Of a stretch of DNA of 7,531 bases, positions 1 through 7,531 are shown piece by piece. A program made the translations under genes and the position numbers. This DNA is from Gammaproteobacteria bacterium (GTDB taxonomy: Bacteria > Pseudomonadota > Gammaproteobacteria > HK1). The notes under the pieces were generated by a model. It was not told where the DNA came from. It made no database searches and worked only from the letters and a program-made list of their open reading frames with translations. The stretch lies in the NCBI GenBank assembly GCA_020444775.1, contig JAGRHX010000096.1:1-7531 (forward strand), given 5' to 3'. The first letter of the stretch is position 1; every line of letters starts with the position of its first letter.

Positions 1-378
1 GAGAATCTCGGGCCCGCCATTGGAGCGTTGACCGAGTCCCTTCGCGGTAGCCAAGAATCTACCCGTCTCCTCTCCGAGTCACTGAGCCGACTTGCCATGC
101 TCAACGACCGCGTCGATGCCACACTCCGTGCCGCACGCGATGTCGGACCGACCTCCTCGTCGAAGGACGCTGATCGTATCATTGCCGCGATCGCCCGACT
201 TGAGGAGCGTCTCGATTCATCGGCCACGCCGCGGGCCATTGACCGACGAGAGCTGCCTCACGCTCCGGCGGCCCGGCCACAGGGCGCGGACGCTACACCG
301 CCCGAGCCGTCTCCCCCGCCCACAACCGGTGAGCCTGAGGGCCTAATGGCTCGACTCTCGCGGAAGCTGTTCAGCTGA
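1..378 (+). CDS. zorA: C-terminal tail of a ZorA-like (MotA/TolQ/ExbB-type) motor subunit, 5' partial
   Basis: The reading frame is open from base 1, so this is the last 125 residues of a protein that starts upstream; the internal TTG at 28 is not taken as the start. Seen: residues about 1-70 form a helical stretch with regular hydrophobic spacing (leucines in TESLRGSQ, LLSESL, RLAMLNDRV), then a second short helix (IIAAIARLEERL). A low-complexity Pro/Ala region follows (about 80-112), and the end is a short basic amphipathic segment, GLMARLSRKLFS. Family knowledge: ZorA has a MotA-like membrane domain followed by a long cytoplasmic helical tail that is thought to transmit the motor signal. 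Inference: the ZorA assignment rests mainly on position, since the next gene, 1 nt downstream, is ZorB/MotB-like, and on this coiled-coil tail. No channel domain is visible, so another coiled-coil protein cannot be excluded. Confidence 0.6.
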   Translation, partial: ENLGPAIGALTESLRGSQESTRLLSESLSRLAMLNDRVDATLRAARDVGPTSSSKDADRIIAAIARLEERLDSSATPRAIDRRELPHAPAARPQGADATPPEPSPPPTTGEPEGLMARLSRKLFS

Positions 379-379
379 T

Positions 380-1018
380 ATGGAGTTCCGAGCCGGACAC
401 GCGGACGAGGAGTTCGCGCCGTGGTCGGTCCTGTCGGACATCTCGATCACCATGGTCCTCTTTCTGGTGATTTTCATCGTGCTGCAGTTCCTCCAAACCT
501 ATCGCGACAGTGCGATCAACAGGCAGCTGCGCCTCGAGAAGGAGACAGTGGCCCACGAGATTGTCACGGCAGCCGGTGCCCAGGTCATCCTTGACACGAC
601 GGACTCGCCCGAGCGCCAGCGGCTGACGTTTCGCGACGCAACGCTGTTCGAGACCTGCCAGTCCGCACTCAAGCCCGGAGGGCAGGAGCTTTTGGAGATT
701 GTCGGTAGCGTGCTGGCCAGACATGAAGCGCTCTTTCTCACCGTCAGTGTCGAGGGACATACCGATACACTGCCGACGCCCAATCGCGCGGGGTGTTCGT
801 ATGCGACGAACTGGGAGCTGTCATCTGCTCGCGCGACGTCGGTCGTGGCGCTCTGGTCTGCCAACGGGCTCATCACGAACGCGAAGATGTCCTCGGTCGG
901 AAAGGCCGAGTTCCACCCGATCGACCCGCAGGCCCTCGAACGTAACCGCCGCATCGAGGTACTCCTGACCTATGACCGAGGGTATGTGCAACGAAGGGTC
1001 TTGGGTGATGATCGCTGA
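380..1018 (+). CDS. zorB: ZorB-like MotB/OmpA-domain stator protein
   Basis: This 212-residue protein has the full MotB/ZorB plan. A short cytoplasmic N-terminus (1-18) precedes one transmembrane helix (about 20-39, DISITMVLFLVIFIVLQFL) with Asp20 at its start, the position of the proton-carrying aspartate in MotB and ZorB. Next come a charged linker helix (about 41-66) and a C-terminal OmpA-like peptidoglycan-binding domain (about 80-200). That domain carries EGHTD (125-129), NWELSSARA (144-152) and RNRRIE (188-193), which includes the Asp and Arg that bind diaminopimelate in this family. The expected role is an inner-membrane stator that pairs with ZorA, conducts ions and anchors to the cell wall. 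The ATG lies 1 nt after the upstream stop (TGATATG), which suggests translational coupling. The only two cysteines, Cys93 and Cys139, are both predicted periplasmic. A flagellar MotB is unlikely because the downstream neighbours are a helicase/nuclease and an unknown protein. The OmpA/MotB fold is certain; the Zorya label comes from context. Confidence 0.85.
   Translation: MEFRAGHADEEFAPWSVLSDISITMVLFLVIFIVLQFLQTYRDSAINRQLRLEKETVAHEIVTAAGAQVILDTTDSPERQRLTFRDATLFETCQSALKPGGQELLEIVGSVLARHEALFLTVSVEGHTDTLPTPNRAGCSYATNWELSSARATSVVALWSANGLITNAKMSSVGKAEFHPIDPQALERNRRIEVLLTYDRGYVQRRVLGDDR
993..998 (+). promoter_or_regulatory. ribosome binding site supporting the ATG at 1008
   Basis: GAAGGG sits 9 nt before the ATG at 1008 and inside the end of the zorB-like gene. 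It supports 1008 as the start of the third gene. The in-frame alternatives are weaker: ATG 972 has GAGG 12 nt upstream and would overlap the previous gene by 47 nt, and ATG 984 has GAGGG too close. GTG 1005 is also possible with the same site. Confidence 0.5.
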
Positions 1019-1517
1019 TCACACCGAGGAGCCAAGCGGAGAGCCTGCAGACCTCGGAGCCTGCCTGGTGGCCCTGCGTCAGCGGTTCGTTGCTGGTGCA
1101 GGGGGCACCGCGTCGACTGACGAGGATGTCGTCATTGCTGGCCTGCGCTACCTGGCAGTGCTGGCACTCTGGCCCGCCCATGAGGATCCGTGGCACGTCG
1201 CACTTCGTGGTGCTGAGCGTCTCCGAGCCAGCGTACTCAAGGTATTGCCGGCTCTGAGGGAGGCAACACGCTATCGCCGCTTCCTCGGCGAGCTAGTACG
1301 TGGCGAGATCGGCCTCGCCCCTCCATCGCTTCCCCAGGAGAATCCTGCCCAGTCCATGGGGGTAATTCACGCTGACGCGGTCCTCCCCGATTCCCCGACG
1401 TGGTGGGACAGGGTTCGCCAGGTCCTTGGCCTGCGGCCCCGTCGGACCTATCGGGGCGGTTTCTCCGGAACAATTGGCGTCACCAGCTTCTCGAGCAAGG
1501 ATGAGTCCCCAGAATGA
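1008..1517 (+). CDS. Unrecognised small helical protein, third gene of the Zorya-like operon
   Basis: I do not recognise this protein. With the ATG at 1008 it has 169 residues; an upstream in-frame ATG at 972 would give 181. Seen: a polar, acidic N-terminus (1-15); a mainly helical region (about 16-103) with hydrophobic stretches such as VVIAGLRYLAVLALWP that are too short and broken for a clear membrane span; a Pro-rich linker (about 104-130); a helix with tandem tryptophans, TWWDRVRQVLGLRP (131-144); and a Gly/Ser-rich end. I see no catalytic motif, zinc ligands or signal peptide. It overlaps the zorB-like gene by 11 nt and the helicase gene by 4 nt (ATGA), so it is made with both. Inference: it may be an adaptor linking the ZorA tail to the large effector, the place where ZorF would sit in a type III Zorya layout. 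I cannot confirm homology to ZorF, so no symbol is given. Confidence 0.75.
   Translation: MIADHTEEPSGEPADLGACLVALRQRFVAGAGGTASTDEDVVIAGLRYLAVLALWPAHEDPWHVALRGAERLRASVLKVLPALREATRYRRFLGELVRGEIGLAPPSLPQENPAQSMGVIHADAVLPDSPTWWDRVRQVLGLRPRRTYRGGFSGTIGVTSFSSKDESPE
1514..1517 (+). other. ATGA start/stop overlap
   Basis: The helicase ATG (1514-1516) overlaps the stop codon TGA (1515-1517) of the small protein. AAGGA at 1497-1501 lies 12 nt upstream, rather far for an independent site, so termination-reinitiation is the likely way the helicase is translated. Confidence 0.8.
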
Positions 1518-4500
1518 GTGAGCCTGCCCTCCCAGGAGCTGAGCCGGAGCTCGACCCGGACGTCATTCGGGATCGGCTTGCTCGAGTCTTTCAGTTCTTA
1601 AAGCTCCAGCAGGATGAACGAGTCCCCCCTCCAAGATCTCTCTCGAGCTATCCGTGGCGACTCGACCTCACGTCGCTTCCCGAGCATCCTGCGGTTCAAA
1701 GACGTCCACACGATCCGGAGCACGACTGGCCACTGCTCGAGGTGACTCGTGCTCACGTTGAGACCGCCCCTGCGCCTCCCGGCGTCCTTGAGGGCTGGGT
1801 GAACGACGGCTGGACCGCGATCAATGGCGCGATTGCTGTTGCGGCACGCCGCATCGTCACACCCGGTCCACCTGAAGATGTATTCGAGGAGTTCGAGGAT
1901 GAGCCGGAGAGGGCGGAGGCACTCGAAGCGTGGAAGCAGCGGTGGGTGGAGTGGCAGGCGCGGAACCGCCCCGCTTGGGAGGCTCGCCAGCTCTACGACC
2001 GACTGTTCGAATTGCATGCTGCGCTGGAACGGGATCTCGGCAGCGTGGAGGCCATCGCCGCAGACGTGCACCTGACATGGCAAGGTGCCACACGGGGGCC
2101 GCTCGACCATCCACTGCTTGCACGCCGAATGAAGGTCGAGTTCGACCCCGATACCCCGCTGATCCGAGTCATCGATTTACCAGAGGCCCCGACAGAGTTC
2201 CTCTCGCGGGTCCTGGTCGGTGAGCCTGAGGTGGCCGAGACGGCGCTTCGCGGCCTACAAGAAGGACTCAGAGAGGATCGGGTGCATCCCTTCAGTCCGG
2301 ATGCCGTGCAGGCATGGGGTCGGCGTGTCGTTCAGACGCTGTGGGTCGATGGCAGGTTCGAATCGGGCGTTCCTGATGACCCCGGGCCTCGCCCCGTTGT
2401 CAGTCCGCGTCCCGTTCTCCTGATGCGGAGTCGTGGCGCAGACCTCGCAGAGGTTCTGACCGAGGTGGTCGATCAGATCGGGGCGGGGAGCGACCTGCCC
2501 GCGTCCCTGGTGCAGATCGTCGGAGGAACGGCCGTTGCGAGGCCAGGCGTCACGCTCGGGTCGGGTGGCTGGTCAACGGTCGCACCGCCCGAGGTGCTGT
2601 TCGGGAAGGCCGCCAATCGGGAGCAGCTCAAGCTTGTCCAAGAGCTCGATCGGCATGATGCCGTGCTCGTGCAGGGCCCTCCCGGCACCGGCAAGAGTCA
2701 TACGATCGCCAACCTGATCGGACATCTGACCGCACAGGGAAAGACTGTGCTGGTCACCAGTCAGAAGGGCAAGGCGCTGAATGTCCTCAAAGGCCATCTG
2801 ATTTCGGCGCTCCAGCCGCTCGCAGTAAGTGTGATCAAGGAAGAAGGGTCAAAGCCACTCAAGAACGCGGCATCAGCGCTACTGGAGGGGATGGCCCAGA
2901 CCCAAGACGAACTCTCGGCCGAGGATGTCCGACTTACGTCGCTCCGGAGTGATCTGCATGCGATGATCGAGAAACTGACACGCGAGATCCTCGCATGCGT
3001 CCAGGGTGAATATCGCGAAATTCGGACGGGATACACCCCGCTCAGGCCTGCCGAGGCGGCCAAGCGGCTCGTCGAGGAAGTCGGTCGATCCGATTGGCTC
3101 CCCGGCCCGCTCTCACCTGAGACCGCATCGCCGCTGACGCCCGAGGAGACTGACCGGCTCTACCACCTGACGGCAAGCATCGATCCCGAGGTGGAGGCGG
3201 CAATCGAGGATGGTGTCCCCGCGGTGACCGACTTGCCGACACTGTCGGACTTCAGTGCGCTACTGGAGCAAGAGCGAGCGTTCGATGTTGCCGGCGCGTC
3301 GTGGGATCAATGGACGACGCCATTGCCCGAAGATGCTGCGGCGCATCGACGGCACGAGGACGCCTGCCGATCAGCCCTTGGCCGGGTCACCCGCCTGCGC
3401 CAGGAGCTCGCGGCACTCGAGCCATGGGAGGAGCCACTCCTCGACGTCGCGCTGCGCGCGGAAGGCACGCCCCCCTGGCTCAATCAGGCGGTCGAGAGTA
3501 TCGCCACATGGCATGATCTCGTGCGGTCTGAGCGGCAGGTGCGCATCGACCATGAGGTCGTGCTGCGCCCGGGAACCGATCCCCAGCGCCTCGAAGATCT
3601 GCTGTCCAAGGAGGTCGCGAAGCTGGGTGGGTCCTCCCACATCTCGCAGTGGCGGCGCCTGTTCAACGGAGATGCCAAGGAGGTCATGGCCAGCGCCACC
3701 GTAAATGGGCACCCCCCCATGTCGTCACGAGAGCTGGAGTTGGTCAGGAAGGTGCTGCACTTCTCCGGACAGCGGCGCCAGCACGCCCGGCAATGGGCTG
3801 AGCTCGTGCCCGGTGGCCCAGCGCTCCCTGACGATGAGGGGCAGAGCCTGGCCCTCCGGCGACGGTTGGAGCATCGTGCCGGGCTGGCACCTGAGTGGTT
3901 CGCTCTGCGGGCTGAGCTTCCACCAACGCTGGGGTTGTCCCCGAGTGCCCTTGATCGGGCTGGGGCTCCCGGGATCGAGTCCTTGCCACTGTTGCGCGAA
4001 GTCCGGCGCCTCGTCGCTGGCTTGGAGACGATGCTCCAGGACCGTCTTCAGGGCCTCAAGTCACGCGCAGCATCCATGCTGCTTGCCGAGGCGATCAGTC
4101 AGCTCCAGGCCGGCCCCACGCAACTGGCCCGGGAAGCGGCTCGGATCCTCCACGCCCGGGACCTGCCGTCATACGAGCGTTTCCTGGCGATCCGTGTCGA
4201 GCTTGAGCGCCAGGAGGCGCTCGTGTCGGAGCGCAAGCGGTTGCTCGGTCGCCTGCGGCCAACGGCACCTGGATGGGCCGAGGCTCTGCGCACTCGCGCG
4301 GACGGTCACAATGATGGCGTCTGTCCCGGACCCGTGATCGAAGCGTGGATCTATCGTCAGGCTGCCGAGGAGCTGGAGCGTCGGCACGCGGTCGACCTTG
4401 ATCAGCTGCAGGTCGACCTGCGAGAGTGCCAGCAGCAGCTTCTGGAGATCACCTCGCGGTTGATTGCAACTCGCACATGGCAGCACCTCCTGCAGGATCG

Positions 4501-6058
4501 ATTGCCTCGAAACAAGCAGGACCTGTTGACCTATACGCAGTTGATGCACCGGTACGGCAAGGGTACCGGAAAGCTTGCATGGCAGCTGCTTCGCCAGGCT
4601 CGAACCCATCTGGAGCAGGCAAGGCGGGCGGTTCCCATCTGGATCATGCCGATGGATCGTGTCTTCGAGTCATTCCGGCCCGAGTCACAGCTCTTTGATG
4701 TGGTGATTGTCGACGAGGCGAGCCAGTGTGATCTCACTGGCCTGCTTGCGTACTATATCGCCCGGAAGGTCGTCGTCGTCGGGGACCACGAGCAGGTCCA
4801 ACCCTCGGCGGTCGGCATGGACCTCGATACGACGGAGGAGCTGCGCCAGTCCTACCTGTACGATGTCCCGGGAAGCGCCCTGTTTCGTCCGGATACCTCG
4901 ATCTACGACTTTGCACGAACGTCGTTCGGCGGCCAGCTGATGCTGCGCGAGCACTTCCGGTGCGTTCCCGACATCATCGCGTTCAGCAACGGGTTGTCCT
5001 ATGACGGAGAGATCCGAGCGCTTCGCCCCGCCAGTGCCGCTCCCGCACCCCACGTCGTCGAACACGTCGTCCCCCGTTTGAGTCTGGGCGATCGTGACAA
5101 GACCAACGTCGCCGAGGCCCTGTGGATTGTCGCGCTCGTCACTGCGATGACGGAACACTCGCGGTACCGCGACAGAAGCATTGGCGTCGTCTCCCTCCTC
5201 TACGCGGAGCAGGTCAAAGAACTCGAATCGGCCATGCTGAAGCACGTGCCGGCAGCCCTGCTGGCTCGACATAACATCGTCTGCGGGTCGCCCAGCCAAT
5301 TTCAGGGCGACGAGCGCGATGTGATGCTGCTGTCCATGGTGTCACGGCCATCAGGGGGTCCCCAACGGCTGCTGTCGGAGCACATCTTCAAGTCGCGCTT
5401 CAACGTCGCGGCGAGCCGTGCGCGTGACCAGCTCTGGGTGGTGCATTCCCTCGATCCGGAGATCGACCTGAAAGAGGGCGATCTGCGGCGGGCGCTCATC
5501 AAGCATGTCCGTGATCCCGGGGCGCTGCGCAGGGTGTACGAAGAGAAGGCGGAGCAGGCGGAGTCACCCTTCGAGAAAGAGGTGTTGAGGCGCCTGATCG
5601 ATGCCGGCTTTGAGGTAACGCCGCAGCACCAGGTGGGCTTCTATCGCATCGACATCGTGGTCTGGGATGGGGATCGCCGGCTGGCCATCGAGTGCGATGG
5701 TGAGCGCTATCACACGCTCGACGATCTGCCGAGGGACCTCGCCCGACAGGCAACGCTGGAGCGCCTCGGCTGGACATTTGTCCGGATCCGGGGGAGTCAG
5801 TGGTATGGCGACCGCGATGCCGCCTGGAGATGGCTCAAGGACAAGCTGGCTCGGCATGAGATCGCACCGCGCGATGCCGACCTGCCTGGGCACGCCGAGC
5901 CGGGCGGTGAAGTCGAGTACCAGCTGCTGGGCCGCGCCCGCGAGTTGCTGGCCGAGTGGGGTCACGGGGACCTCGTGCCGCCGGTGGAGCCGGTCGCACC
6001 AGTCGTGCTGGGAGACCAGCAGGCAGTGGATCCCGAGCCGCATTTGCCTGAGGCGTAG
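1514..6058 (+). CDS. Large SF1 (Upf1/DNA2-like) helicase with C-terminal Vsr/DUF559-type nuclease domain
   Basis: This 1514-residue protein is predicted to be a cytoplasmic ATP-dependent DNA translocase/nuclease and the effector of the operon. The N-terminal region (1-350) resembles that of large bacterial AAA_11/AAA_12 helicases, with a HPLLARRMKVEFD segment near 201. Helicase motifs in order: Walker A GPPGTGKS (388-395); motif Ia TVLVTSQKGKAL (411-422); a helical, Arg/Leu/Glu-rich insert of about 600 residues; the family-typical lead-in PIWIMP (1041-1046); Walker B VDEASQ (1066-1071); motif III GDHEQVQP (1090-1097); motif IV LREHFRC (1144-1150); motif V QFQGDE (1262-1267); motif VI FNVAASRAR (1296-1304). 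The C-terminal domain (about 1351-1450) has a PD-(D/E)XK pattern with Glu1354, Asp1380 and the ECDGERYH block (1393-1400), as in REase_MTES_1575/DUF559/Vsr-like nucleases. An acidic, Pro-rich end follows. All key residues are present, so both activities look intact. It may correspond to ZorG of a type III Zorya, but I cannot verify this, so the symbol is left empty. Confidence 0.93.
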   Translation: MSEPALPGAEPELDPDVIRDRLARVFQFLKLQQDERVPPPRSLSSYPWRLDLTSLPEHPAVQRRPHDPEHDWPLLEVTRAHVETAPAPPGVLEGWVNDGWTAINGAIAVAARRIVTPGPPEDVFEEFEDEPERAEALEAWKQRWVEWQARNRPAWEARQLYDRLFELHAALERDLGSVEAIAADVHLTWQGATRGPLDHPLLARRMKVEFDPDTPLIRVIDLPEAPTEFLSRVLVGEPEVAETALRGLQEGLREDRVHPFSPDAVQAWGRRVVQTLWVDGRFESGVPDDPGPRPVVSPRPVLLMRSRGADLAEVLTEVVDQIGAGSDLPASLVQIVGGTAVARPGVTLGSGGWSTVAPPEVLFGKAANREQLKLVQELDRHDAVLVQGPPGTGKSHTIANLIGHLTAQGKTVLVTSQKGKALNVLKGHLISALQPLAVSVIKEEGSKPLKNAASALLEGMAQTQDELSAEDVRLTSLRSDLHAMIEKLTREILACVQGEYREIRTGYTPLRPAEAAKRLVEEVGRSDWLPGPLSPETASPLTPEETDRLYHLTASIDPEVEAAIEDGVPAVTDLPTLSDFSALLEQERAFDVAGASWDQWTTPLPEDAAAHRRHEDACRSALGRVTRLRQELAALEPWEEPLLDVALRAEGTPPWLNQAVESIATWHDLVRSERQVRIDHEVVLRPGTDPQRLEDLLSKEVAKLGGSSHISQWRRLFNGDAKEVMASATVNGHPPMSSRELELVRKVLHFSGQRRQHARQWAELVPGGPALPDDEGQSLALRRRLEHRAGLAPEWFALRAELPPTLGLSPSALDRAGAPGIESLPLLREVRRLVAGLETMLQDRLQGLKSRAASMLLAEAISQLQAGPTQLAREAARILHARDLPSYERFLAIRVELERQEALVSERKRLLGRLRPTAPGWAEALRTRADGHNDGVCPGPVIEAWIYRQAAEELERRHAVDLDQLQVDLRECQQQLLEITSRLIATRTWQHLLQDRLPRNKQDLLTYTQLMHRYGKGTGKLAWQLLRQARTHLEQARRAVPIWIMPMDRVFESFRPESQLFDVVIVDEASQCDLTGLLAYYIARKVVVVGDHEQVQPSAVGMDLDTTEELRQSYLYDVPGSALFRPDTSIYDFARTSFGGQLMLREHFRCVPDIIAFSNGLSYDGEIRALRPASAAPAPHVVEHVVPRLSLGDRDKTNVAEALWIVALVTAMTEHSRYRDRSIGVVSLLYAEQVKELESAMLKHVPAALLARHNIVCGSPSQFQGDERDVMLLSMVSRPSGGPQRLLSEHIFKSRFNVAASRARDQLWVVHSLDPEIDLKEGDLRRALIKHVRDPGALRRVYEEKAEQAESPFEKEVLRRLIDAGFEVTPQHQVGFYRIDIVVWDGDRRLAIECDGERYHTLDDLPRDLARQATLERLGWTFVRIRGSQWYGDRDAAWRWLKDKLARHEIAPRDADLPGHAEPGGEVEYQLLGRARELLAEWGHGDLVPPVEPVAPVVLGDQQAVDPEPHLPEA

Positions 6059-6094: not shown

Positions 6095-7531
6095 CTACGC
6101 CACCCTCTCCTCATACAGGTGCCGCTGGAATCCCGAGAACGCCCCCTTGATCTCGTCGGCATCTCCCAGGTCGGCGAGGGCATCCGCGATCGAGTTGTGG
6201 TACTTGAGCCGCAGGAGCGGGGTCAACTTCTCGGGGTCAAGCTCCTCGACCCCTACCGCGACATAGTGCGACAGCACGAAGTCCAGAAACACCTGCTGCT
6301 TGGTGTTGAACTTGGTGCTGATCACCACCTTCGCGCGTGCCGCCCGTTCCTCCCGGCTGACCGGGGGCAGCGCATAGGCCACATGTGCCAGCACGTCGAA
6401 GATGTCGCTCTGCTCCGCATCGATGATTCGCTGCATCTCCAGCAGCTGGTCGTGTCCGAAGCCCCGCTCAGCCAGGCCCTCGAGCAACTTCCTCCTGGTC
6501 TCGGGGACGCCCCAGAGCGCACGTAGCTCCGCCTCGTCCCTGAAGAGCTCCGGGAGCCTCCCGAACAGCGACTCCATGAACTGCTGCGCGCTCATCGGTG
6601 TCCCATCGGGGTGCCAGAACGTGGTTGCCATCATGTGCTGGATGGTTCGTGCCTTGCCATCGGCCAGCTTTACGCGGGCCCGAGTCCGGCGCGGTCCAGC
6701 CTCCCTCTCCGAAGGGGGAGGCTCGGGGTAGGGTGGCGGCGGTCCCTCCTTCACGACCTTGGGCTCTGGCTCCAGCGGCTCGCCGTCCCACTCGGGGTCA
6801 TTGAAGTGGTGGTGCGCCTTCACGAAGTCGTAGATCGTGAAGTAGTCCTTCCCGTCGAACAGGCGCGTGCCTCGTCCGATGATCTGCTTGAACTCGATCA
6901 TCGAGTTGATCGGCCGGAGCAGGACGATGTTCCGGATGTTCCTGGCGTCCACACCGGTCGACAGCTTTTGCGAGGTAGTCAGGATAGTCGGGATCGTCTT
7001 CTCGTTGTCCTGGAACTCGCGCAGGTGTTGCTCGCCCAGGGCACCATCGTTTGCCGTGACCCGCTGGCAGTAGTTGGGGTCATCGCTCTGCTTCGTCTGA
7101 TTGATGAGGTCGCGCACGAGAAGGGCATGATCCTGTGTCGCGCAGAAGACTAGCGTCTTCTCGCGTTGGTCGATCGCGTCCATGAAGATGCGGACTCGTT
7201 CAGCCTCCCGTTCCTTGATCTCGATGAGCCGGTTGAAGTCGCTCTCGACGTACCGCCGTCCCTGTTCGATCTCGCCCTCGATCAGTGTGTCGTCGCTGGT
7301 GTAGACGTACTCGTCGATGGTGGTCGAGATCTGGCGCACCTTGAACGGCGTCAGGAAGCCGTCGTTGATCCCTTCCTTGAGCGAATAGACGTAGACCGGC
7401 TCGCCGAAGTAGGCATAGGTGTCGACGTTGTCGGTGCGCTTGGGGGTCGCGGTGAGGCCGAGCTGGACGGCGGGCGCGAAATATTCGAGGATGCCGCGCC
7501 AGTTGCTCTCGTCGTTGGCGCCGCCGCGATG
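6095..7531 (-). CDS. hsdR: Type I restriction endonuclease subunit R, C-terminal part (EcoEI-like)
   Basis: The frame is open to the window edge, so 478 C-terminal residues are visible; the GTG at 7339 is internal. Numbering from the edge: the protein begins with HRGG, the end of the DECHRG-type motif II, whose first residues lie outside. It continues with motif III GLTATP (25-30), the second RecA domain with KTLVFC (about 125-130), motif V STGVD (191-195) and motif VI QIIGRGTRL (216-224). A proline-rich linker follows (about 253-280), then the helical EcoEI_R_C-type C-terminal domain ending in FSGFQRHLYEERVA. HsdR is the ATP-driven translocation and cleavage subunit of a type I restriction-modification complex and works with HsdM and HsdS, neither visible here. 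The N-terminal nuclease domain is off the edge. No frameshift or stop interrupts the visible part. The gene converges on the Zorya-like operon with 36 nt between stops, so it is a separate transcription unit in the same defence neighbourhood. A palindromic element lies within the linker. Confidence 0.95.
   Translation of the reverse strand, partial: HRGGANDESNWRGILEYFAPAVQLGLTATPKRTDNVDTYAYFGEPVYVYSLKEGINDGFLTPFKVRQISTTIDEYVYTSDDTLIEGEIEQGRRYVESDFNRLIEIKEREAERVRIFMDAIDQREKTLVFCATQDHALLVRDLINQTKQSDDPNYCQRVTANDGALGEQHLREFQDNEKTIPTILTTSQKLSTGVDARNIRNIVLLRPINSMIEFKQIIGRGTRLFDGKDYFTIYDFVKAHHHFNDPEWDGEPLEPEPKVVKEGPPPPYPEPPPSEREAGPRRTRARVKLADGKARTIQHMMATTFWHPDGTPMSAQQFMESLFGRLPELFRDEAELRALWGVPETRRKLLEGLAERGFGHDQLLEMQRIIDAEQSDIFDVLAHVAYALPPVSREERAARAKVVISTKFNTKQQVFLDFVLSHYVAVGVEELDPEKLTPLLRLKYHNSIADALADLGDADEIKGAFSGFQRHLYEERVA
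6698..6723. repeat. Palindromic element inside hsdR, resembling a dispersed intergenic repeat
   Basis: AGCCTCCC (6698-6705) pairs perfectly with GGGAGGCT (6716-6723). The stem extends inward by a T-G and a C-G pair (6706/6715, 6707/6714), leaving the loop TCCGAA. The G-rich flank CTCGGGGTAGGG (6722-6733) follows. Both the hairpin and this flank resemble the small CCCTCTCC-hairpin-GGGTGAGGG type of repeat scattered in many GC-rich bacterial genomes. Here it is in frame on the minus strand, encoding part of a Pro/Ser/Glu-rich linker of HsdR (around PEPPPSEREAGP) without disturbing the flanking domains. Whether it is a true copy of a genomic repeat family cannot be decided from this window. Confidence 0.55.

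Follow-up and report, generated by a model that had tools for sequence, protein, structure and literature searches.

A cluster of four genes in the window (the whole stretch of 7,531 nucleotides analysed here) is somewhat likely to be a Zorya-like antiphage operon outside types I to III, in which an SF1 helicase-nuclease occupies the place of ZorD as a module gathered by the motor. The cluster looks like a variation on a defence already known, not a system of a new kind, and what is new is the different helicase-nuclease in the seat of ZorD. The gene layout, the identity of ZorB, the motifs of the helicase and of the nuclease, and another cluster of helicase, ZorA and ZorB genes (L068, in a different genome) are seen directly. 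The features of the window are:

1 to 378, plus strand: probable 3' end of zorA, a reading frame open at its 5' end and truncated by the contig start
380 to 1018, plus strand: ZorB-like protein of 212 amino acids (PADLOC ZorB1, ZorB2 and ZorB3 models, Pfam OmpA, hydropathy)
1008 to 1517, plus strand: orphan small protein of 169 amino acids (ORF call, codon-position GC like that of its neighbours)
1514 to 6058, plus strand: UPF1-like SF1 helicase with a C-terminal MTES_1575 (Vsr-like) nuclease, 1514 amino acids (Pfam, motifs)
6095 to 7531, minus strand: C-terminal part of an HsdR of the EcoAI/FtnUII type (NCBIfam NF046051, E 1.6e-146; Pfam EcoEI_R_C)

The four genes between positions 1 and 6058 all lie on the same (plus) strand. 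The zorA tail ends at 378 and the ATG of zorB is at 380, which leaves a gap of 1 nt; zorB and the small ORF (ATG 1008) overlap by 11 nt, and the stop of the small ORF overlaps the helicase ATG at 1514 by 4 nt (ATGA). The first-pass annotation had described this layout, and its ORF sizes and its three junctions were all reproduced. The overlaps of 4 and 11 nt argue for a single transcript and translational coupling. The cluster is taken to end at 6058 because the next gene, the HsdR part, is convergent, and this neighbour is taken as a separate system.

That the 212-amino acid protein is ZorB-like, as first proposed, is well supported by sequence comparison. It matches the PADLOC models ZorB1 (PDLC00608, E 3.8e-14), ZorB3 (E 8.8e-10) and ZorB2 (E 7.6e-7) as well as Pfam OmpA (E 1e-11), and has one transmembrane helix, with the most hydrophobic 19-residue stretch starting at residue 17, and an OmpA-type peptidoglycan-binding domain. 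Asp20 lies within the helix and is aligned with an aspartate in nine of nine ZorB-type proteins, in agreement with the conserved ZorB aspartates described as critical in solved ZorAB complexes in the available part of PMC11890865. A profile of 29 rows (A2: the window protein and P0123 to P0150, taken from the 120 listed of 199 matches) was compared with the PDB and found chains of solved ZorAB complexes, namely 8vvn_B (66.7 bits), 8qyd_F (46.2 bits) and 8vvi_A (43.8 bits), with each alignment spanning both the transmembrane and the OmpA parts. The same part of PMC11890865 gives 8VVN as type I ZorAB and 8VVI as type II ZorAB; the sequence of 8qyd_F is identical to that in entries whose other chain is named ZorA. 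Flagellar MotB chains outscore the ZorB chains with this profile (up to 116.9 bits), almost wholly through the OmpA part, and the NCBIfam matches of the window protein include MotD, MotS and TssL, all below their own cut-offs. These MotB and NCBIfam matches, together with the position of any ZorA channel domain outside the window, would suit a MotAB/TolQR-type motor with an envelope task instead of a role in defence; this is very improbable, given that the PADLOC ZorB matches span the transmembrane and OmpA parts, that the overlapping genes lead into a helicase-nuclease, and that a restriction-modification gene adjoins.

The 1514-residue SF1 helicase-nuclease of the first-pass annotation is borne out by Pfam matches to AAA_11 (residues 368-468), AAA_12 (1142-1310) and MTES_1575 (1353-1444), all above cut-offs. 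Walker A is found at 388-394, Walker B at 1067-1068 and QFQGDE from 1262, and D1380, E1393 and D1395 are present as putative nuclease residues; across an alignment of 13 proteins, neither the Walker residues nor these three vary. PDB relatives by sequence include SEN1, SMUBP-2, DNA2 and UPF1. In the available part of PMC3710099, MTES_1575 is classed as an REase of the Vsr type, and the protein described there bears an SF1 helicase as well. A database entry (P0002) starts the protein 95 codons later, at a GTG; the start at 1514 is preferred because P56, H58 and R79 are invariant in the 13 proteins. The best PADLOC match of the helicase is the candidate system PDC-S37 (residues 954-1450). For PDC-S37, Hhe, Mko and antiphage_ProA the best stretch covers helicase sequence and is confined to the C-terminal third of the protein. 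For PDC-S37, Hhe and antiphage_ProA it extends through the nuclease to residues 1440-1452; the best stretches for PADLOC Mko end by 1314. The scores of 194 bits for antiphage_ProA and 139.7 bits for Hhe lie far below the NCBIfam cut-offs of 1500 and 2000 bits, respectively.

Zorya types I, II and III have ZorC/ZorD, ZorE and ZorF/ZorG, respectively (PMC8565338, PMC11890865, in the parts available), with ZorF being a DUF3348 protein and ZorG a DUF2894 protein (PMC8565338, likewise). Among the five window proteins there was no match to ZorC (EH signature) or ZorD (PADLOC, E≤1) and none to HNH or ZorE families (PADLOC, Pfam, and the NCBIfam families shown), so that the absence of these proteins noted at first holds in these scans. 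Likewise, no DUF3348 or DUF2894 match was found among the five proteins (PADLOC, Pfam), and the type III assignment offered as one option in the first-pass annotation is therefore ruled out. The PADLOC scans have a positive control for type I only, the canonical locus L100, where the ZorA, ZorB, ZorC and ZorD models all match. The window resembles type I in having ZorB, a probable ZorA and a large helicase-nuclease in one cluster; however, PADLOC describes ZorD as "SWI2/SNF2 helicase, Mrr-like nuclease," whereas the window has a UPF1-like SF1 helicase with MTES_1575, and an orphan small ORF instead of a ZorC match. It shares ZorB and a nuclease gene with type II (ZorA, ZorB, ZorE), but has the helicase-nuclease where an HNH protein would be expected and was not found. 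The ZorB3 match is a likeness to type III, from which the window differs in lacking a match to either DUF. Of the new variant proposed as the other option, the joining of ZorB to a helicase-nuclease stands, while unwinding and cutting by one polypeptide is not itself new because PADLOC already describes ZorD in this way. In the literature searched, no Zorya with an SF1-MTES_1575 partner was found, and no mention of a type IV Zorya or of a Zorya-like, ZorAB-like or ZorA-like system.

A second helicase-ZorA-ZorB cluster is found in an Elusimicrobiales MAG (L068, CALUUY010000013.1), in the order helicase, ZorA, ZorB, a 651-amino acid protein and a 259-amino acid protein. Its main features are:

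to 13209 (stop to 13212): helicase, coding bases
from 13230: full ZorA of 493 amino acids (PADLOC ZorA1, E 3.7e-15; solved ZorA chains 8vvn_C, E 2e-7, and 8qyk_A, E 9e-5)
from 14724: ZorB (PADLOC ZorB1, E 1e-34)
from 15329: ZorC-like protein of 651 amino acids

The helicase-ZorA junction is 17 nt and the ZorA-ZorB junction 12 nt, followed by a 4-nt ATGA overlap. As in the window, a helicase of the same family adjoins ZorA and ZorB, and ZorA has a proline-rich linker and a short basic/hydrophobic tip. The differences are that the helicase comes first, that the 651-amino acid ZorC-like protein is present, and that the helicase is from another branch of the family. The two helicases are 36% identical over residues 858-1452 and 25% over 125-576, and fall in separate branches of the tree, so the pairing of helicase and ZorAB may have arisen twice; the end branch of L068 is long (1.68), which makes its placement less sure. 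The 651-amino acid protein is plausibly a divergent ZorC. Neither it nor its relative in L099 (32% identical) is matched by a ZorC model of PADLOC or Pfam, and the comparison of an L068/L099 ZorC-like profile with a single canonical ZorC was insignificant (E 0.14, probability 0.4%). ZorC-like profile A4 compared with profile A5, made of three canonical ZorCs, gave E 4e-4 and a probability of 35% for the C-terminal part, where FW and H..W residues are held in common. Since the library misses these ZorC-like proteins, a divergent ZorC in the window could also escape it. At E≤1e-15, and with its own genome counted, the L068 ZorB has relatives in three genomes out of 247 from the same phylum and in two out of 90 from the same family. 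The loci L099 and L100, the latter the canonical type I control, are among these. L099 has ZorA, ZorB and a ZorC-like gene, and in its genome (completeness not given) no helicase of the window family was found at E≤1e-20; a related motor in a genome with no such match counts against the main reading.

The helicase family is large, with at least 2181 relatives (7992 candidates scored). Among the 120 listed, the closest are P0003 (56%) and P0004 (55%), or about 55-57%, and other full-length alignments have at most 38% identity, some short segments being higher. In a tree of 58 rows these two and the window helicase form a clade with 100% support, and its stem is long, at 1.2 changes per column, which would suit a specialised partner. 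Neighbourhoods were fetched for 82 helicase loci, 80 from genomes (the best 80 of at least 403 relatives) and two viral, many of them truncated by contig ends. By the ZorB profile (E≤1e-3), a ZorB-like neighbour is present in just one of the 82, L068, which speaks against the main reading. The helicase is thus mostly not kept beside zorAB elsewhere, contrary to what a conserved cassette would show, with L068 as a clear exception. Single-sequence phmmer searches of the 82 loci with the window ZorB, small protein and ZorA tail gave no match, and no second copy of the exact four-gene order, the conservation of which across genomes had been raised earlier, was found. For 41 of the helicase loci, 39 genomes were searched with ZorA1, and three of them had a match at E≤1e-6; this match adjoins the helicase only in the genome of L068, the remaining two genomes having it on a different contig. 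Among 207 neighbouring ORFs of 63 helicase loci, no partner occurs in more than two loci, except for two groups of six: one apparently consists of pieces of split helicases, and the other of upstream genes on the opposite strand, mostly in Gastranaerophilales. With a ZorB-like neighbour in one of the 82 loci, the helicase as a general partner of ZorAB is ruled out.

The helicase-nuclease may instead be a stand-alone defence gene that landed behind zorAB in a defence island by a type I restriction-modification gene, the two working apart. This is rather unlikely, although a widespread family that mostly has no constant partner, a best PADLOC match to the candidate system PDC-S37, and HsdR downstream of the helicase all fit it; the gene overlaps argue against it, as does L068, where a second member of the helicase family ends 17 nt ahead of zorA. 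The counter-case to a Zorya-like operon is nonetheless real: a ZorB-like neighbour is missing from most of the fetched loci, the helicase seems to be lacking from related motors, and defence genes cluster.

Relatives of the window ZorB were searched for in overlapping sets of 24, 297, 296, 246, 188, 279, 77 and 145 genomes (centre genomes recur, and phyla were read from record titles), with an E limit of 1e-8 for the 24-genome set and limits of 1e-34 to 1e-40 for the others. At 1e-8, 17 of 24 genomes matched, with generic OmpA, and ORFs were scored in eight loci (L083-L090). At the strict limits, matches were found in 1/296, 1/246, 11/188 and 1/77 genomes and in 0/297, 0/279 and 0/145, where the empty sets, having no known positive, carry no weight. 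The sole strict match with a frame of ZorB size is G1180, the others having frames of at least 294 amino acids. No helicase of the window family is found in the 20-kb region of G1180, and none was seen on the 5.3-kb contig of G981. In the sampled genomes, few matched regions of which were inspected, the window ZorB subfamily and the helicase were not seen together at any locus. Thirteen ZorB relatives have 45-55% identity (among 120 of 199 matches listed), against few close helicases (two at 55-57%, the best other full-length ones among the 120 listed at 38%), a contrast that points to different partners for related motors. The helicase P0003 is on a contig of 13631 nt and the ZorB P0123 on one of 13667 nt; these lengths are near and unequal, and show nothing on linkage. 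The database proteins of the window locus itself are on an 8064-nt contig, by eye the sole contig common to both protein lists.

On plasmids, helicase relatives occur in 397 records, all below 60% identity (the top is 38% among 30 listed), and the window ZorB gives partial OmpA matches in 30 records; helicase and ZorB were not seen side by side among the records listed. ZorA and ZorB of L068 match two and 20 plasmid records, respectively, which are annotated Zorya genes and other OmpA proteins. Of four loci inspected, one is a Zorya annotated as type II, two are pairs of an OmpA protein and a protein in the ZorA position, and one is a conjugation region. A DNA search with the window matched only the HsdR part (ten matches listed), and profile A2 had no match in viral contigs.

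For the small ORF, a further open ATG lies upstream at 972 (181 amino acids), and ATG 1008 is the start used by the database protein P0001. In codon-position GC the ORF is like its neighbours, as would be expected if it is coding. Its AF2 model has a mean pLDDT of 41 and is uninformative. Among 1817 candidates sharing 5-residue words, from 5.8 billion proteins, only the protein itself was found at E≤1e-3, so the conservation of this gene beside zorAB-like genes considered earlier was not seen. The ORF occupies the position of ZorC (type I) or ZorE (type II), and of two related systems, L068 includes the helicase and L099 does not. Both points would suit a complete three-gene motor system of ZorA, ZorB and the small protein, such as L099 may be, to which the helicase would be an optional extra, broadening or reinforcing its action. 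That arrangement is improbable, as the small ORF has no homologue in this search and no nuclease or ZorC match (PADLOC, Pfam, NCBIfam).

In the Zorya-like operon favoured here, the order of events would follow published work on Zorya. An ion-driven motor made of ZorA and ZorB would sit in the inner membrane. On breach of the envelope by a phage, the OmpA domain of ZorB would grip or sense peptidoglycan, and the cytoplasmic tail of ZorA would then draw the nuclease module to the point of entry. The SF1 helicase and its Vsr-like nuclease would serve as this module, unwinding and cutting DNA in the seat that ZorD has in type I, and the small protein may be an adaptor. The helicase would thus be the effector of the motor and the cassette would act on phages. 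Zorya effectors have already been described as modular, and recruitment of ZorCD, ZorE or a similar nuclease module by ZorAB has been proposed (PMC11890865, in the part available); the simplest account is therefore that the helicase-nuclease is another such module. The pairing of helicase and ZorAB is rare and occurs in two branches of the family (the placement of L068 being unsure), each time in a tight same-strand order.

A further Zorya type, in which an SF1 helicase with a Vsr-like nuclease was taken up at least twice from a mostly free-standing family and docks via the basic/hydrophobic tip of the ZorA tail, is a tentative possibility. If true, ZorAB would be a general sensor of envelope breach that accepts interchangeable DNA-destroying modules. 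If the main reading holds, the SF1 helicase-nuclease would join the list of Zorya effectors, and the ZorAB motor as a plug-in sensor would be supported. How the ZorA tail picks its nuclease would become testable, as ZorD and the SF1 type would answer to the same kind of motor. ORF 1 is probably the C-terminal part of ZorA, mainly from its position before zorB; a MotA/TolQ/ExbB-type channel domain, as the first-pass annotation would expect, would lie beyond the contig start. The 125-residue fragment matches no model in PADLOC (E 1), Pfam (E 0.1) or NCBIfam (E 0.1), and its failure to match a ZorA model counts against the main reading. Hydrophobic periodicity in its first 85 residues is ambiguous, with p 0.03 at 3.4 and at 3.6 residues, 0.49 at 3.5 and 0.30 at 3.67 (uncorrected). 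It has a helical-looking stretch, a proline-rich linker and a short basic/hydrophobic end, EGLMARLSRKLFS, similar in style to the ZorA C-termini of L068 (KKGFLGFFKH) and L099 (EGLFKTIFGKLIGK); six other proteins that are ZorA or in its position (L100, L116, L117, L118, L119 and L120) do not have such a tail layout. This comparison covers nine proteins by eye, with no statistics, and the ZorAs of L068 and L099 are related (35% identical). Among these few proteins, ZorA tails end differently in ZorD-type and in SF1-type systems.

The ZorC-like proteins of L068, an Elusimicrobiales MAG locus with a helicase of the SF1-nuclease family, and of the related locus L099 are undetected by any PADLOC or Pfam ZorC model, and their C-terminal part aligns with three canonical ZorCs.

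L068:15329-17281 and L099:10604-12613, ZorC-like proteins (650-670 aa)
L099:8138-12613, ZorA, ZorB, ZorC-like three-gene cluster (genome G802, same family as the genome of L068)

Judging from these sequences, systems with ZorC-like proteins of this type may be overlooked by current models. No ZorD neighbor of the L099 cluster was seen within the 19.5 kb fetched, and G802 has no SF1 helicase of the window-helicase family at E<=1e-20; the cluster may represent a separate, small variant of Zorya.

The strict ZorB match in genome G1180 is an OmpA protein that has an Asp and is hydrophobic over a stretch near its N-terminus; its surroundings have no helicase of the window-helicase family within the 20 kb fetched.

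L113:9955-10596, OmpA protein of ZorB size

Residues 1-391 of the window helicase (window 1514-2686) gave a confident structure prediction (mean pLDDT 89), and a Foldseek search of this model against the PDB returned no match at E<=0.001. The neighboring HsdR part, 71% identical to HsdR on a Methylomagnum ishizawai plasmid record, suggests a defense island.

Window 6095-7531, HsdR C-terminal part, EcoAI/FtnUII-type

Two SF1-nuclease family members adjoin helicase-like proteins, SNF2-type by eye, that are related to each other.

L008:6886-8604, 3' of the helicase, 4-nt overlap
L024:5481-8654, 5' of the helicase, 118 nt to its earliest possible start
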